A stretch of DNA of 35,050 bases from Microbacteriaceae bacterium. GTDB lineage: Bacteria > Actinomycetota > Actinomycetes > Actinomycetales > Microbacteriaceae. The stretch spans positions 1 through 35,050 of the forward strand of contig JAODMT010000012.1 of assembly GCA_025464975.1 (NCBI GenBank), in the 5' to 3' direction. Positions 4,448 to 11,687 of the stretch are shown here, one piece after another. The notes below the pieces were generated by a model. It saw only the letters and a list, made by a program, of their open reading frames with translations, ran no database searches and was not told the origin of the DNA. The translations under genes were made by a program, and so were the position numbers. How positions within the stretch are numbered: the stretch's first letter is position 1; the number at the start of each line of letters is the position of its first letter.

Positions 4448-4984
4448 ATGAGACGGTATCTTCCTTGGATCGGCGCGCTCGTCATACTGATCGTCTTTAC
4501 GTTGATGACGTACGGTGTCATGCAACAGATTGAACGGCAGGGGGCGAACGACGGTCCCCTTCGCCTAGCGAGTGAGGTTTCGTCGGAGCTTGCCCGCGGT
4601 AGTGGCACCACGATCGACGCCATGCCACGGGTCGACCTCTCGAACAGTCTCGCTCCCTTCGTCGTCGTGTTCGGTGTCGACGGAAAACCGTCGTCGGGGA
4701 ATGGTTATCTGCACGGCGCTCTAGCTTCGCCTCCATCTGGGGTGATCAGCACAGCCCGCAAGGCCGGGCAGGGGAGTGTCACATGGCAGCCTTCGACTGG
4801 GTTGCGGTTTGCGACCGTGTCGATCAGATCAGGCGATCGTGTGGTGATGGCAGGCCAATCGCTTGCGCCATCTGAACATCGCACGGAGAGCATCGGAACG
4901 ATCATTGCTATGGGCGGGCTGGGTGCCGTGCTCATCCTTGTTCTCACTTTCGCGTCGTGGGAACTCTTTCGCCGTCGCGAGTAG
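4448..4984 (+). CDS. Two-TM membrane protein with an extracytoplasmic sensor-like domain
   Basis: A 178-residue protein of unknown function. Residues about 4-24 form a first membrane helix (LPWIGALVILIVFTLMTYGV). Residues 25-148 are exported and soluble. Residues about 150-171 form a second helix, followed by a short basic tail (ELFRRRE). The exported part, with FVVVFGVDGKPSSGNGYLHG, ISTARKAGQGSVTWQPSTG and LRFATVSIRSGDRVVMAGQSL, resembles the PAS/CACHE-like sensor region of histidine kinases, but no HAMP or kinase follows. There are no cysteines, so no c-type haem. It lies upstream of the cytochrome-b cluster on the same strand, separated by about 276 bp. Whether it belongs to that cluster is an inference from position. 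No strong Shine-Dalgarno is visible before the ATG. Confidence 0.7.
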   Translation: MRRYLPWIGALVILIVFTLMTYGVMQQIERQGANDGPLRLASEVSSELARGSGTTIDAMPRVDLSNSLAPFVVVFGVDGKPSSGNGYLHGALASPPSGVISTARKAGQGSVTWQPSTGLRFATVSIRSGDRVVMAGQSLAPSEHRTESIGTIIAMGGLGAVLILVLTFASWELFRRRE

Positions 4985-5260
4985 CCTGGCCAGGACACGG
5001 GGCGGCAGGACACGGGCGGCATCTGCTCGATCCCCGTGCCCGGTCTACTTGCTGTATGGGGGAATTGAGGTGCGTACAGCAATAGCGTGGGAGTGCGCGC
5101 CCGTTTGAAAGATATGCCATCGCACGACGCGAGTCTTGCTCACAAGAATTTGGCCGGAGATTTCGAAATTTCCCCTCGTAGCGGCGGAGCATCCGTACGC
5201 GTACGGTGTGCCGTGGGACGCCAAATCGCCGGAACATCCGGCACGAGTGCATTCATAGGG

Positions 5261-5443
5261 ATGCGGGGCAAACGCGTGTTCAGCACAGAGACATCACCAT
5301 TCACCGCAATCGACGGAGGAACCTATCTGGGCTGGGGAAATTTTCTCATCCAATTGGGCAACTTCATTGTCATCGTCGTAATGCTTGTGATCTTCGGTCT
5401 TGCGTTGGCGCTCCCGTTCCCGGGAACGAAGCGGTCAAAATGA
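5261..5443 (+). CDS. Small single-TM protein upstream of and overlapping cytochrome b
   Basis: A 60-residue protein if the ATG at 5261 is used. The GTG at 5276, preceded by GGGG at 5264-5267, is an alternative, and the frame is open back to 5087. The main visible element is one hydrophobic helix (GNFIVIVVMLVIFGLALALP), preceded by GGTYLGWGNFLIQL and followed by a basic tail. Its TGA at 5441-5443 overlaps the ATG of the cytochrome b gene (5440) by four bases, so translation of the two is probably coupled. That points to a small accessory subunit of the cytochrome b complex, like the single-helix subunits of other quinol-oxidising complexes. It is not recognisable as any named subunit. Confidence 0.6.
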   Translation: MRGKRVFSTETSPFTAIDGGTYLGWGNFLIQLGNFIVIVVMLVIFGLALALPFPGTKRSK

Positions 5444-6147
5444 CCTCCCGCGGCTCAGGCCGCGAGCCTCAGGAGAGCGGGGCTGGCCTCAGTTGGACCG
5501 GACGTTCTCGGCGCTGGTTATTGAAGCGCCTGCCACCGGAGAAGCTGCTGCCCGAGGGGCAACCCAGCTACGTCGCGTCCTGGATCTACGTGTTCGGTAT
5601 CGGTGCGATTGCCTCCCTGATCTACGTCATCGCGTCCGGTATTCTCCTCAGCCTGAATGGGCCGGCGTGGTATCACGTGTCGGGTTTGGGCCGGTTCGTG
5701 AACAGTTCCCACCTGTGGAGTGTCGAGCTGTTCTTCATGACGATGGTTGTGCACCTGTGGGGCAAATATTGGATGGCCGCGTGGCGTGGTGGGCGGGTGC
5801 TCACCTGGGTCACCGGGGTGATTTCCTTCGCTGTGTCGATCGTCGCCGCATTCACGGGATACCTGTTGCAAACGAACTTCGACTCGCAGTGGATCGCGTT
5901 CCAGGCAAAGGATGCGCTCAACGCGGTCGGAATCGGCGCCTGGTTCAACGTCGTCAACCTGGGCCAGATTTTCATGTGGCACATCGTGCTGCTTCCCCTC
6001 GCCGTCGGCGCCATCGCGGCCTTCCACGTGCTGCTCGTCAGAGTTCACGGAGTCGTACCGCCCCTGGAAGCGGCCGAGAGCGACGCCCAACTGCAACTTA
6101 CGGATCGCGAGCGCTCCGACACGAAGTCCCAGGGTGGAGGACTATGA
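5440..6147 (+). CDS. Cytochrome b (b6-like, N-terminal dihaem domain only)
   Basis: A 235-residue membrane protein corresponding to the N-terminal four-helix dihaem domain of cytochrome b/b6. The haem-ligand pairs are visible: H91 and H105 (14 apart, in SSHLWSVELFFMTMVVHLWG), and H181 and H196 (15 apart, in MWHIVLLPLAVGAIAAFHVL). The 14/15 spacing is that of cytochrome b6 and menaquinol-type b; mitochondrial-type cytochrome b has 14/14. Gly and Arg residues typical of the haem pockets are nearby (GLGRFVNSS). No C-terminal domain (PEWY-type quinol site) is fused, and none is encoded next door in recognisable form. No Rieske or cytochrome c gene is in the window. ATGA overlaps at both ends (5440 and 6144) link it tightly to its neighbours. 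Transmembrane electron transfer is the expected role; donor and acceptor are unknown. Confidence 0.85.
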   Translation: MTSRGSGREPQESGAGLSWTGRSRRWLLKRLPPEKLLPEGQPSYVASWIYVFGIGAIASLIYVIASGILLSLNGPAWYHVSGLGRFVNSSHLWSVELFFMTMVVHLWGKYWMAAWRGGRVLTWVTGVISFAVSIVAAFTGYLLQTNFDSQWIAFQAKDALNAVGIGAWFNVVNLGQIFMWHIVLLPLAVGAIAAFHVLLVRVHGVVPPLEAAESDAQLQLTDRERSDTKSQGGGL

Positions 6148-7097
6148 CCAAAATTCGACCCTCCGTCTCATGGCGGCGCGGAAATGACATAGCGAGCCGC
6201 CCCTGGACCGGTGCCACCCGCAAGTACGACCTGCTGAAGGAACTGACCGTCGGGACGATCGTCATCGGCCTCATCGTCGTCGCCCTGTCTCTGATACTCG
6301 GTTCGCCTGACGAACCCAGTATCACCTTGAAATCGTGGGCGACTAACGCACCAGCGGACTTCGTCGCGACAGCGACCGCGGAGCTCGGCGGCACCAGCGA
6401 CACCGCCGGATACGGGCCGCCCTATAACACAACCGCCGACGCCACTCAGACGCTCGGGCCGATCGATCTCCAGAGCCTGTCGGGCGTGCGAATCCCCATC
6501 GACACCGCGACCGCGTTCGTGACCGGACCCCTCAGTCTGCAGACCACGCCGCCCCGCTCGCTCGCAGTCTGGTCCGCAGCCACCACAGCCCAGCGAACTG
6601 CGTGGACCTCCGCGTACGCGGACGCCTTGGCAAAAGCTCCCGCGAACGATCCGGCCCGCGTTGCGCACGGTTCTTTCGGCCCGGTTCCGGCTCTGACGTC
6701 CTCGCTGCTCGCCATGGCGAAACGAGGCGCTCTCGACGGGGCGATCCAGGGCGAGGGCGGCTTCTTCAACCTCGACTACACACGCAGCATCCTCTTCCTC
6801 GGCGACGGCACCTACTTCGTCGGCATAGCAAACAATGCCCACCTCACCGGCGACCAATGGGGCATGATGAACGAAACCGGCAATTATCCGGGCCAATCCT
6901 GGCTGTGGCTCTTCTCCTTCTGGTATCAGATCCCCGCGATCGGCGGCGCGGCGAACGCCGACGTCCTCGTCGTCGGGATCATGCTCATCCTCACCTTGCT
7001 CCTCACGCTGGTGCCCTTCATCCCCGGCCTGCGGATGCTGCCCCGATTGATCCCGGTCCACCGCCTGGTCTGGAGGGACTACTACAAACGACGCTGA
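6144..7097 (+). CDS. Unrecognised membrane partner of the cytochrome b
   Basis: A 317-residue protein starting at an ATG that overlaps the cytochrome b stop by four bases, with GGAGG at 6136-6140. Residues 1-32 are basic and cytoplasmic, about 35-53 form one helix (LTVGTIVIGLIVVALSLIL), about 56-270 are exported, and about 273-295 form a second helix before a basic C-terminal tail. The exported domain has no cysteines, so no c-haem or Fe-S cluster is evident. It is rich in aromatic and Gly residues near its end (GEGGFFNLDYTRSILFLGDG, then QSWLWLFSFWYQIPAIGG). I do not recognise the family. By position it would be the second large subunit of a b6-like complex, perhaps covering the outer face of the cytochrome. 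The long minus-strand frame over it looks like a codon-bias shadow. Confidence 0.75.
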   Translation: MTKIRPSVSWRRGNDIASRPWTGATRKYDLLKELTVGTIVIGLIVVALSLILGSPDEPSITLKSWATNAPADFVATATAELGGTSDTAGYGPPYNTTADATQTLGPIDLQSLSGVRIPIDTATAFVTGPLSLQTTPPRSLAVWSAATTAQRTAWTSAYADALAKAPANDPARVAHGSFGPVPALTSSLLAMAKRGALDGAIQGEGGFFNLDYTRSILFLGDGTYFVGIANNAHLTGDQWGMMNETGNYPGQSWLWLFSFWYQIPAIGGAANADVLVVGIMLILTLLLTLVPFIPGLRMLPRLIPVHRLVWRDYYKRR

Positions 7098-7673
7098 GCC
7101 TCACCACGCATCAGACGTTGACGAACGCAGCGGCCGCCCCTCCGCCGAAGCCGGAAGTAGACGCGGGAGCATGAGCCAGATCACGGGGCGGCGGAATCCA
7201 GCTCGGGTTCTTCCCGCGGGCCGGACCCGGAAGCTGACGGTTTAACCGGGCGAGCGTCGAGATGCGGTTTGTTCTCAGTGAGTAGTGAGCGCGACCTTTT
7301 CATGATTCGAGGGCTCAAGTAACGGTGCGTTGGGAGTACATCCCTGCCGTGTAGTAGTGGCCGGCGATATTGCCAATGAGTTCGGCGCCGCGACCGTCAC
7401 CGCGATCGACCGAGCGATCAACCTCGACCAGAACGGACATGGGCTGGTTAGCTTGGGACTCCCGGCTACCCGACAGCTTCTGGCAATCAACCACCCCAAC
7501 CGGCACGACCGACGATCTAGACCCCCCGGATAGACTCCCGCGTCCCAACCGACTTTTACACCCGCAAGACCCGAACAATCCGGCGTGCCTGAAAATCATC
7601 AGGCACGCCGGATTTGCAGGTAACCCACCCGCATCGCCGTTCGATCCGCAGATAATGACCGAATTCGGGCACG
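7098..7673 (+). other. Gene-poor region between the cytochrome cluster and tRNA-Leu
   Basis: About 570 bases without a convincing gene. A 67-codon plus-strand frame at 7330-7533 and overlapping minus-strand frames are present, but none has a good ribosome-binding site or similarity I recognise. The notable element is the 38-nt hairpin at 7577-7614. The region borders a tRNA, so old insertion and decay is possible but not shown. Confidence 0.5.
7577..7614. repeat. Perfect 16-bp inverted repeat (hairpin)
   Basis: The arm at 7577-7592 (AATCCGGCGTGCCTGA) is perfectly complementary to the arm at 7599-7614, with a 6-nt loop (AAATCA). No T-run follows on either strand, so it is not a classical intrinsic terminator. 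It could still stop transcription from the cytochrome cluster about 480 bp upstream, or be a REP-like element. Confidence 0.7.
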
Positions 7674-7702: not shown

Positions 7703-7755
7703 CTGCCGACCTATCTTCCGAACCAGTACCGAGCAATTGCCCGAACCACCCACTG

Positions 7756-7840
7756 TGCGCGAAGGGGGACTTGAACCCCCACGCCCTATACGGGCACCAG
7801 CACCTCAAGCTGGCGCGTCTACCATTTCCGCCATCCGCGC
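7756..7840 (-). tRNA. tRNA-Leu (anticodon GAG)
   Basis: On the minus strand the cloverleaf folds fully. The acceptor arm GCGCGGA pairs with TTCGCGC (one G-T pair). The D arm contains TGGCGGAAATGGTAGACGC, typical of leucine. The anticodon stem CCAGC/GCTGG encloses TTGAGGT, giving anticodon GAG. A long class-II variable arm follows (GTGCCCGTATAGGGC), then the T arm GGGGGTTCAAGTCCCCC. The discriminator is A and no CCA is encoded. Length is 85 nt. Confidence 0.95.
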
Positions 7841-7942: not shown

Positions 7943-9256
7943 ATGCCATCGAACACCTCCGAAAACGACCTTGACGACACAGCACGGGTCGCGCGGGACC
8001 TGATCCGATTCGACACCACGAACTATGGCGGGGGCCGCTCCAACGGCGAAACGGATGCCGCGGAATACGTCGCGGCCCGCCTCGCGGCACTCGGGCTGAA
8101 GCCGCAAATGTTCGAATCGGAGCCGGGACGGGTAAGCGTGGTGGCGCGGGTCGAGGGGTCCGATCACAGTAAGCCGGCACTCGTCGTGCACGGCCACACG
8201 GATGTCGTGCCGGCTCAGCCGGACAACTGGTCGGTCGACCCGTTCGGCGGTGTGATCAAAGACGGACTGCTGTGGGGCCGCGGAGCCGTGGACATGAAGA
8301 ACATGGACGCCATGATGCTCACCGCGCTTGGCGACATTCTCGGCGCCGGCAACCAGCCCTCACGAGACCTCGTCATCGCGTTCTTCGCCGACGAGGAGGC
8401 CGGCGGGGTGCTCGGTTCCGGATACCTGGTCAAGAATCATCCGGAGCTGTTCGAGGGCGCGACGGAGGCCATCAGCGAGGTGGGCGGCTACTCGATCACG
8501 CTCAACGGCACCCGCGCCTACCTGTTGCAGACCGGCGAGAAGGCTCTGGTCTGGGTCAAGCTCATCGCCCGCGGTACCGCCGCTCACGGCTCTCACGTGA
8601 TGAAAGACAACGCAGTCACCAAACTCGCCGAGGCGGTGGCGACGGTGGGCCGACGGGAATGGCCGATCCGGCTCACCGACACGACCACCGAATTGCTCTC
8701 CGAACTGGCGCGGCTGCTCGAGGTCGACCCGCAGAAGGTGGGGCCAGACGAGCTCGCTCTCGCCACTGGCACGGCCAGCCGCTTCATCCAGGCCTCGCTT
8801 CGCACGACGGCGAACCCGACGATGCTCACCGCGGGCTACAAGCACAACGTGATTCCGGACACGGCGGAGGCCCTGATCGACATTCGCACGCTGCCGGGGG
8901 AGGAGGATGCCGTGCTGGCCGAGCTCGCGGACCTCGTCGGGCCCGAGATCGAGATTGTGGTCATGCACCGGGACATCGGACTCGAGACCGAGTTCGGCGG
9001 TCCACTCGTCGAGGCGATGACTTCCGCGCTGCACACCCACGACCCGGGAGCCCCGGTGTTGCCGTATCTGCTCTCCGGTGGGACCGACAACAAGGCGCTG
9101 TCCACGATCGGAATCAAGGGATACGGATTCGCCCCGCTCAAGCTGCCGCCCGAGCTCGATTTTCCGGCGATGTTCCATGGCGTTGACGAGCGTGTGCCGC
9201 TCGACGCACTAGTCTTTGGCAGGCGCGTATTGGGGGATCTCCTGCTCCGCTACTAA
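7943..9256 (+). CDS. M20-family zinc metallopeptidase / deacylase
   Basis: A 437-residue cytoplasmic hydrolase of the M20 (ArgE/DapE/carboxypeptidase) family, close to the actinobacterial group that includes Rv2141c. The metal site is clear: HGHTDVVP with H83, H85 and D87, then GRGAVDMKN with the bridging Asp, then the catalytic DEEAGG. The lid or dimerisation domain is inserted in the middle (ARGTAAHGSHV), and LSGGTDNKAL near residue 375 carries late active-site residues. The final metal His is probably in AMFHGVDERVP. The ATG at 7943 is preceded at 7931-7936 by TACGTT, seven bases away, which fits a leaderless start. The substrate (an N-acyl amino acid or dipeptide) cannot be specified. The neighbour uppP is also its neighbour in mycobacteria. 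Confidence 0.9.
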   Translation: MPSNTSENDLDDTARVARDLIRFDTTNYGGGRSNGETDAAEYVAARLAALGLKPQMFESEPGRVSVVARVEGSDHSKPALVVHGHTDVVPAQPDNWSVDPFGGVIKDGLLWGRGAVDMKNMDAMMLTALGDILGAGNQPSRDLVIAFFADEEAGGVLGSGYLVKNHPELFEGATEAISEVGGYSITLNGTRAYLLQTGEKALVWVKLIARGTAAHGSHVMKDNAVTKLAEAVATVGRREWPIRLTDTTTELLSELARLLEVDPQKVGPDELALATGTASRFIQASLRTTANPTMLTAGYKHNVIPDTAEALIDIRTLPGEEDAVLAELADLVGPEIEIVVMHRDIGLETEFGGPLVEAMTSALHTHDPGAPVLPYLLSGGTDNKALSTIGIKGYGFAPLKLPPELDFPAMFHGVDERVPLDALVFGRRVLGDLLLRY

Positions 9257-10126: not shown

Positions 10127-10249
10127 CCGGCGCACCTGCGCCCGGGGAGCGCACCGGAGTAAACTGTTTCACGCGAACTCGCAACACCTTCCGTAGGGTG
10201 GCGATGATCGAGATTGAGGGGCATTGATGTTCCGGTTCCGTACGTTCCG

Positions 10250-10969
10250 ATGACACAGCAACAGACCTTCGATGAGGCCAAGAGAGCGATTTCGTTCGCG
10301 TTCGAAAACAGAAGCAGTCTGTGCGAGCCGTTCCTCTCCGTGATTCCCGTCTCTGGGGCTTCCGTCTCATTTCTCGGCAGCACCACCGCGCAATCGACCA
10401 TCTGCGCGAGCGATCAGACGGCGGCTATGCTCGACGAGTTTCAGTTCGACCTGGGGGAGGGGCCGTGCTGGCAGGCCATGCACACCCGTCGACCGGCGCT
10501 TCATCCGAACATCCAGAGCGAGGCTAATCCGGCCTGGCCCGAGTTCTCGAGCGCCATCCGCGGTGGCGGCGTTTGCGCAATGTTCGCTTTCCCGCTTCAC
10601 GTCAACTCGCTCGAGATCGGGGCGGTGGACCTGTACAGCTCAAGCCCCGGCCCGCTGACGGCGATTCAGGTTGCTCAGGCTTCGGCCCTCGCCGACATTA
10701 CCGCGTGGCAGGTGCTGCGTAGGGTGTTGGCCGAGCGGGACGACGGGCCGGAAGTCCGCGCCTACTCGCGTCGTGAGGTTCACCAGGCGACAGGAATGGT
10801 GATCGCCCAGCTAAATGTGACGGCGCAGGATGCCAGCCTTGTGCTGCGCGCGCACGCGTTCTCGACCGGACGTTCGGTCCGCGAAATAGCGCACGACATC
10901 GTCGAGCGGAAACTGAATCTTTCCGGCGAAGAGACCGAGAGTCCGGACTCTTCACGAGCGATAGGATGA
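10250..10969 (+). CDS. GAF-ANTAR regulator, first of a tandem pair
   Basis: A protein of about 239 residues if the ATG at 10250 is used; an in-frame TTG at 10214 would add 12 residues, and neither start has a clear ribosome-binding site. Residues about 20-150 form a GAF-like ligand or redox sensor domain, with LGEGPCWQAMHTRRPALHPNI and MFAFPLHVNSLEIGAVDLYSS. The C-terminal part, YSRREVHQATGMVIAQLNVT through GRSVREIAHDIVERKL, is an ANTAR RNA-binding domain. ANTAR proteins generally act as antiterminators by binding paired hexaloop stem-loops in mRNA leaders. Two cysteines sit in the GAF domain (GPCWQ and GGGVCAMF), so redox sensing is possible. The second GAF-ANTAR gene starts four bases after the stop. 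A -10-like TAAACT lies at 10160-10165. Confidence 0.85.
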   Translation: MTQQQTFDEAKRAISFAFENRSSLCEPFLSVIPVSGASVSFLGSTTAQSTICASDQTAAMLDEFQFDLGEGPCWQAMHTRRPALHPNIQSEANPAWPEFSSAIRGGGVCAMFAFPLHVNSLEIGAVDLYSSSPGPLTAIQVAQASALADITAWQVLRRVLAERDDGPEVRAYSRREVHQATGMVIAQLNVTAQDASLVLRAHAFSTGRSVREIAHDIVERKLNLSGEETESPDSSRAIG

Positions 10970-10973
10970 CGCG

Positions 10974-11687
10974 ATGACGGCCGAAACTCGTGAAGACCGG
11001 CTTGTGGAAACACTCGTTACGTTGGCCGACACTTTAGTGGTCGGTTATGACGTCGTGGATCTGTTGCAAACCCTTGTCGAGGCATGCGCCGATCTGCTTG
11101 AGGCATCCGCGGCGGGACTCTTGCTTGCCGACGAGAACGGGGAACTCGCGGTTGTCGCGTCGACGAGCGAGAAAAGCCGTCTCGTCGAACTCATGCAACT
11201 CAGTTCCGGCGAAGGCCCGTGCGTCAAGGCCTACACGGCCGGTGAAGACGTCGCGATCGAGGACATCGCGTCCATCGCCGCCGTCTGGCCCCAGTTCTAC
11301 CGGGAGGCGCTGGAGCAGGGATTCGCCGCCGTGCATGCGGTGCCGCTTCGGCTGCGCGGAACCGTGCTCGGCACACTCAACCTCTTTCTTACCAGCCCGG
11401 GACGGTTGAGCGACCAGGACCGGATGGTGGCTCGCGGCCTCGCGGATGTCGCTACCATCGGCATCCTGCACGAACGAGCCGTCCGGGAGAACGAGATCGC
11501 CAAGGAGCAGTTGCAGCTTGCGCTGGACAGTCGTGTGGTCATCGAGCAGGCAAAGGGCGTCATCGCCCAGACCTCAGGGGTCGACATGGACTCGGCGTTC
11601 ACCACGCTGCGCCAATACGCGCGCGGTCACAACCTCAATCTGAGGGACGTGGCTGACCAGGTTGTCACCAGGTCGCTCACTCTTTAA
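10974..11687 (+). CDS. GAF-ANTAR regulator, second of a tandem pair
   Basis: A 237-residue cytoplasmic protein. The GAF domain spans about residues 25-155 (DLLEASAAGLLLADENGELAV, SGEGPCVKAYTAGEDVAIED, VHAVPLRLRGTVLGTLNLF). A linker with IAKEQLQLALDSRVVIEQAKG leads into the ANTAR domain (GVIAQTSGVDMDSAFTTLRQ to RDVADQVVTRSL). It starts four bases after the first GAF-ANTAR stop, so the two are almost surely co-transcribed. They could form a heterodimer, with each GAF sensing a different ligand. The Cys of EGPCVK is shared with the first protein. The target RNA is unknown; no dual-hexaloop leader was recognised in the window. Confidence 0.9.
   Translation: MTAETREDRLVETLVTLADTLVVGYDVVDLLQTLVEACADLLEASAAGLLLADENGELAVVASTSEKSRLVELMQLSSGEGPCVKAYTAGEDVAIEDIASIAAVWPQFYREALEQGFAAVHAVPLRLRGTVLGTLNLFLTSPGRLSDQDRMVARGLADVATIGILHERAVRENEIAKEQLQLALDSRVVIEQAKGVIAQTSGVDMDSAFTTLRQYARGHNLNLRDVADQVVTRSLTL

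Follow-up and report, generated by a model that had tools for sequence, protein, structure and literature searches.

A three-gene cytochrome b6-type module without a Rieske partner in Actinomycetota: a candidate quinone-linked membrane complex for low oxygen or dormancy

Cytochrome b6f complexes include cytochrome b6, subunit IV and one-helix Pet subunits, and b6-type proteins are recognized by their haem-ligating histidines, which have 13 residues between the members of one pair and 14 between those of the other. Here we describe a three-gene module that resembles b6f, and the split cytochrome b of Firmicutes, in having a b6 part with H-x13-H and H-x14-H motifs, a separate second subunit and a small one-helix subunit. 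The module spans 5261-7097 of a 35,050-nucleotide stretch from a Microbacteriaceae bacterium (assembly GCA_025464975.1, contig JAODMT010000012.1), referred to here as the window. The window is an entire contig (C12), and neighbours farther out are therefore not visible. As a preliminary description of this stretch had proposed, both gene junctions are ATGA overlaps, and the genes are located as follows:

5261..5443, + strand: P0002, 60-residue subunit with a single transmembrane (TM) helix, gene 1 of the module (homologue search, 80 loci)
5440..6147, + strand: P0003, 235-residue cytochrome b6-type N-domain protein, gene 2 of the module (Pfam, NCBIfam and PDB profiles; alignment)
6144..7097, + strand: P0004, 317-residue protein, predicted as TM helix, exported helical domain (about 57-270) and TM helix, gene 3 of the module (alignment, fusions, model)

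We lean, by a modest measure, toward the explanation that these genes encode a Rieske-less, menaquinone-linked complex used at low oxygen or in dormancy. Several features set the module apart from the described systems. Unlike b6f, it comes without Rieske protein, cytochrome f or c, or PEWY, its second subunit carries an exported domain of ~220 residues, and the bL-side Arg of b6 is replaced by Asn. P0002, P0003 and P0004 contain no cysteine, and the module would therefore have no covalent haem ci. Because the set fails to show the Rieske, c-haem and PEWY hallmarks, we regard it as a variant of cytochrome b complexes rather than as a bc or b6f member. The actinobacterial QcrB of the bcc complex belongs to the same N-domain superfamily and occurs within the same genome, but is encoded in a separate gene set, and P0003 scores 25.4 bits against a QcrB model cut-off of 500. 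The best NCBIfam model for P0003 is ExtP (NF040969), known from selenite/tellurite reduction operons, with a match of 51 bits (1.6e-13) over nearly the whole model; this is far under the equivalog cut-off of 290, so that P0003 does not qualify as ExtP, and CXXCH, the one ExtP-operon feature searched for, occurs in one of 1339 genes near the module. Literature searches, by titles and abstract openings, turned up no description of this gene set, and the natural P0003-P0004 fusions and the dormancy-regulon link reported below are new here.

P0003 belongs to the cytochrome b N-domain family, scoring over the cut-off and carrying the four haem-ligating histidines on helices B and D. It reaches 52.8 bits with the Pfam model PF13631 (cut-off 27) and 27.4 bits with PF00033 (cut-off 27.2), and the best matches of its family profile in the PDB are cytochrome b6 chains (1q90_B, 1.5e-12). 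The b6-like spacing that had first drawn attention to this protein is present, with 13 residues between H91 and H105 and 14 between H181 and H196. All four histidines are invariant across 117 aligned rows, as are the glycines G53/G67 and G126/G140 (14 apart in each pair). P0003 would thus be expected to carry two b haems, one held by H91/H181 and the other by H105/H196.

The module is conserved as a unit. A scan of genome contigs found 219 stretches that encode P0004 relatives, and among the best 80 loci, which were kept, P0003 and P0004 homologues co-occur in every one; scattered genes would have counted against the preliminary description. In four of these loci (L031, L059, L069 and L108), P0003 or P0004 copies are broken by frame breaks. 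A P0002 homologue, with a conserved N34 and PFP at 52-54 at the helix end in the window's protein, is found in 78 of the 80; in L034 and L097 the contig starts inside the P0003 gene. The record titles name Arthrobacter, Paenarthrobacter, Sinomonas, Cryobacterium, Leifsonia, Pedococcus, Amycolatopsis, Streptomyces, Kitasatospora, Actinoplanes and Chloroflexi metagenome-assembled genomes (MAGs), and L033 and L037, though titled Acidobacteria, probably come from actinobacterial contigs that were mis-binned. Between the window and locus L030, the module genes are under purifying selection, with nonsynonymous divergence (dN) of 0.15-0.29 and synonymous sites near saturation (proportion of synonymous differences, pS, 0.68-0.70). 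That the genes encode a real conserved complex is, in our view, nearly certain.

Whole-genome searches, with the window's own genome counted in, found P0004 in 11 of 60 relatives' genomes (weakly in G005 and G014, and as a distant variant in G011), in 10 of 396 genomes of the order (weakly in G014, as a fragment in G076), in 11 of 396 genomes of the phylum, and in 51 of 98 relatives of genome G508, including 39 of the 42 genomes of family f54. Most groups thus have few carriers of P0004, whereas in f54 it is close to fixation. The distant variant is a two-gene version (L021, 444-2173, on G011:C5) that consists of a cytochrome b N-domain protein and a P0004-like protein keeping the QWG motif, with a further small membrane protein overlapping the P0004-like gene; it may mark a second branch of the family.

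The first helix of P0004 spans 34-52 and is followed by an acidic exported stretch, a second helix at 275-293 and a basic tail. The exported stretch of ~220 residues between the two helices is free of cysteine, as had been noted, and the protein carries the motif QWG..NETG..PGQ.W. Residues Q238, W239, G240, E244, P249, W253 and P294 are among the invariants over 120 rows, the distant variant L021 included. P0004 has no match in Pfam, NCBIfam or PDB sequences, and a PDB profile search up to E 10 was also empty; a known family would have counted against the preliminary description. When 48 aligned members were compared with Pfam, the matches were weak and scattered, the best being at E 0.0017 (SafA, 18 members at E up to 1).

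Natural fusions indicate where P0004 may sit. In a survey of 30 further loci, 10 from the phylum search and the best 20 from the search of G508 relatives, P0003 and P0004 form a single open reading frame in 19 (18 of the 20 and 1 of the 10), all in the actinobacterial family f54, and P0002 and P0003 do so in one (L118/L130). These fusions put P0004 in the place of the C-terminal half of cytochrome b. In the helix lettering used for cytochrome b, P0004 would follow helix D, with its first helix, exported domain and last helix at the positions of helix E, the outer ef loop and helix F. To judge from the sequences, the likeness to that half is one of position and topology only. The absence of a PEWY domain noted in the preliminary description thus holds at the level of sequence, but P0004 stands in that half's position.

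The gene set encodes no Rieske protein, c-haem or other cysteine-bound cofactor, which agrees with the earlier description of the locus, although a Rieske partner may be encoded elsewhere in the genome. Among 1339 predicted genes in the module neighbourhoods of 81 loci (the window and the 80 others), a Rieske-like motif occurs in only two loci, in a different protein each, and CXXCH in a single gene, an alcohol dehydrogenase. All 34 genomes tested, 33 with the module and one, G012, without, encode a cytochrome b of canonical type (PF00033 at E<=1e-25), so that the module is an extra complex, not a replacement of complex III. The canonical complex could also lend its partners: an isoform module might borrow the Rieske protein (QcrA) and the c-haem subunit (QcrC) of the ordinary bcc complex and act as an alternative complex III under stress. 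The ubiquity of the canonical cytochrome b in the genomes tested and the retention of the four haem ligands and haem-packing glycines would suit such borrowing. We nevertheless consider it improbable, given that the PEWY half is not recognizable, that the bL-side Arg is Asn, that Rieske-like or CXXCH genes near the module are almost nil, and that the ~220-residue exported domain in place of the loop would crowd the Rieske docking side.

Some redox genes lie near the module in individual relatives. A DoxD/DoxX-Rieske fusion protein of 409 residues adjoins the module in L079 (11690-12919, - strand), from a Frankiaceae MAG with devRS-like genes, and no second example was found in the other sequences searched. 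In L018 (2072-7191, G008), a NuoF-like flavoprotein, a ferric-reductase-like protein, ApbE and a two-component pair are encoded near the module. In L124, L125 and L126 (family f69), the nearby genes include ctaA-, ctaB- and Sco1-type-looking genes of haem A/oxidase assembly, by eye.

A second line of evidence concerns regulation in the relatives. The OsdR regulator, of the DevR/DosR-OsdR regulon of Mycobacterium and Streptomyces, has a palindromic consensus, AGGGCCGATCGGCCCT, and a table of predicted sites (PMC5069765). The exact sequence GGGNCNNNNGNCCC is found upstream of P0002 in 25 of 78 loci, with 0.041 expected for each and ~3 in total; the sites are mostly 40-120 bases ahead of the matched stretch, and some seven of the 25, from Arthrobacter, are nearly identical. 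With a leave-one-out box profile, 43 of 79 loci, the window counted in, have local p<0.05. After identical sites had been taken out of profile training, 27 of 78 module upstreams scored at least 12; for upstreams of the other genes at these loci, the figure was 35 of 964. Control matches scoring at least 15 (26 listed, some on one common divergent promoter) are mostly ahead of stress or dormancy genes, identified by Pfam in L036, L041, L079 and L088 and by similarity or eye in the others: phosphoketolase, P-type ATPase, universal stress protein (Usp), Pyridox_ox_2, nitroreductase, acetate kinase, HSP20 and a GAF-GAF-HisKA_3 kinase. Outside profile training, 9 of 27 deeper-lineage loci score at least 12 (39 loci scored), for example L122 (-98) and L127 (-67), counts that stand without a matched control and in which L175 and L176 have one site in common.

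The box matches the OsdR consensus and the OsdR table of sites and genes (PMC5069765). The likeness to the regulon extends to the same 16-nucleotide palindrome and to common gene types, namely Usp, PNPOx-like proteins, nitroreductase, pyruvate phosphate dikinase (PPDK) and zinc-dependent alcohol dehydrogenase (Zn-ADH). The predicted-site table of PMC5069765, however, contains no such operon, and its main text does not have the word cytochrome.

The neighbours of the module in relatives are consistent with this picture, as it is often found among universal-stress, phosphoketolase, nitroreductase and devRS-like genes. Using similarity to ten representatives typed with Pfam, we counted recurrent neighbours up to ~10 kb away across the 80 loci, Arthrobacter loci being overrepresented in the counts: Pyridox_ox_2 in 15, cation P-type ATPases in 15, Usp in 14, NarL-type response regulators in 11, phosphoketolase in 10 and a pair of ferric-reductase-like and FMN_bind genes in 8. 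The commonest neighbour is an ABC ATPase (25 loci), and flagellar-looking genes occur in Cryobacterium loci (8); both were named by eye and have no bearing on dormancy. Among the Usp matches listed, 28 of 150 are within 25 kb of the module vs 1.14 expected, in 9 of 21 whole genomes. In L079, Pyridox_ox_2 comes first, followed by a DevS-like kinase, nitroreductase, a NarL-type regulator on the opposite strand and finally the module, with boxes between the regulator and the module. A full-length DevS-like kinase (E<=1e-110) is present in 6 of 6 same-genus module genomes vs 1 of 4 without the module (G001, G002, G009 and G012; G010, which also lacks the module, was left out, as were G005 and G011), although absence here is soft because several genomes are incomplete drafts. 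Membership of the module in the dormancy regulon of many relatives is very likely, and its induction along with low-oxygen dormancy genes seems to occur in many soil-dwelling relatives.

This stress setting would also suit a haem-based protein that detoxifies or senses nitric oxide (NO), superoxide or O2, a membrane dihaem b with the exported domain as a cover. Such a protein would fit a DevR-type regulon, no redox partner gene is encoded nearby, and dihaem b561 proteins, for which quinone-linked superoxide oxidation is known, provide a precedent. Yet the family is of the b/b6 type, not the b561 type, and all four expected axial histidines are invariant, which leaves no open haem site; we think this function quite unlikely.

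In the window's own organism, regulation of the module by a dormancy regulator is conceivable. The genome encodes two full-length DevS-like kinases. One of them is encoded together with a response regulator, Pyridox_ox_2 and pntAB, and box-like sites lie close by; the other has a box upstream. One region (L221, 3147-11296, on G000:C10) has a box-like site at 7263 from which Pyridox_ox_2, a small DoxX-looking protein (no Pfam match) and pntAB run away, and another such site, at 8803, with the kinase and regulator genes; it is a probable DevR-type regulon of this genome. Ahead of the module itself there is a different element:

5228..5242, no strand assigned: short palindrome GCCGG-aacat-CCGGC directly 5' of P0002, distinct from a DevR-type box; highest-scoring site, though not significant (p=0.18)

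Several observations weigh against a quinone-linked dormancy complex. No recognizable DevR/OsdR-type box was found upstream of the window's module, where the best site is the palindrome listed above. Scores stay <4 in all nine Cryobacterium loci, with a local p of 0.03 for L047 and no significance in the rest, and 6 of the 7 Chloroflexi-labelled loci that could be scored lack a significant box. G012, without the module, also has a DevS-like kinase, and in G508, with module and box, the DevS-like match is only partial (6.7e-37). Cytochrome b6 has an Arg three positions ahead of its first bL ligand; the corresponding residue of P0003 is Asn (N88, at least 97%), and quinone chemistry may therefore differ. 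The P0004 model is middling, with a mean predicted local distance difference test score (pLDDT) of 72.7 and a predicted template modelling score (pTM) of 0.57, and its poorest part is the motif that is conserved best. No homology between P0004 and the C-terminal domain of cytochrome b could be demonstrated: hhalign against 29 PEWY-type sequences gave a probability of 8%, with an alignment of 32 columns at the first helix.

We suggest that P0002, P0003 and P0004 may form one membrane complex, in which P0003 would be the dihaem cytochrome b6-type core and P0002 a small one-helix subunit. P0004 would replace the C-terminal half of cytochrome b, or subunit IV, with the outer loop enlarged to an all-helical exported domain. 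Menaquinol (or menaquinone) would react at the haem b core, the two haems would carry electrons through the membrane, and on the outer side electrons could be exchanged with an acceptor or donor docked on the P0004 domain. In place of PEWY, an outer quinone pocket is probably lined by the invariant QWGxxxE motif (E244). That the complex is quinone-linked is likely; an electron path between the menaquinone pool and an outer partner is a more tentative proposal, with somewhat less than an even chance. In many relatives the operon is very likely controlled by a DevR/OsdR-type dormancy regulator, so that the most probable role of the complex is in redox balance or residual respiration when oxygen is low or cells are dormant.

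Electrons could instead enter through the module, with an outer-side donor reducing first the haems and, through them, menaquinone on the inner side. The near fixation of the module (39 of 42 genomes) in f54, perhaps the group of the iron oxidizer Acidimicrobium, would fit an input device of this kind. Against this, many of the taxa named in the record titles are soil actinobacteria generally considered heterotrophic, and the dormancy box and neighbours point to acceptor shortage, not donor shortage, so that we judge electron input unlikely.

The means by which actinobacteria starved of oxygen maintain redox balance and membrane potential during dormancy are an open question, for which a widely conserved b6-core complex without a Rieske partner would be a direct, testable candidate. 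If true, our proposal would describe a new evolutionary reuse of the cytochrome b chassis, with the PEWY loop exchanged for an exported domain. A bolder version is doubtful, namely that these genes represent an undescribed class of quinone-linked complexes, ancient in Actinomycetota, in which the quinol-oxidizing loop was swapped for an exported domain without a solved-fold match, and which would carry out Rieske-free, non-bifurcating quinol oxidation as a core arm of low-oxygen dormancy respiration.

The preliminary description had taken the set as a possible undescribed quinone-linked membrane complex. This idea is well supported, with P0004 in no Pfam or NCBIfam family and the genes together in 80 of 80 loci, except that the sensor-like two-TM protein encoded upstream, which had been included, is not a part of it. 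This protein (P0001) has no homologue in the 80 module loci. Its relatives among the 60 genomes are in G001, G002, G007 and G009, with a weak match in G059. G001, G002 and G009, all three drafts, have no P0004 match, and in G007 the P0001 homologue and the module are on different contigs. We therefore rejected P0001 as a module member. It is listed here with the other features of the window:

4448..4984, + strand: P0001, two-TM protein, outside the module
7755-7840, - strand: tRNA-Leu (gag), directly 3' of the module
10214-11687: two tandem GAF-ANTAR proteins

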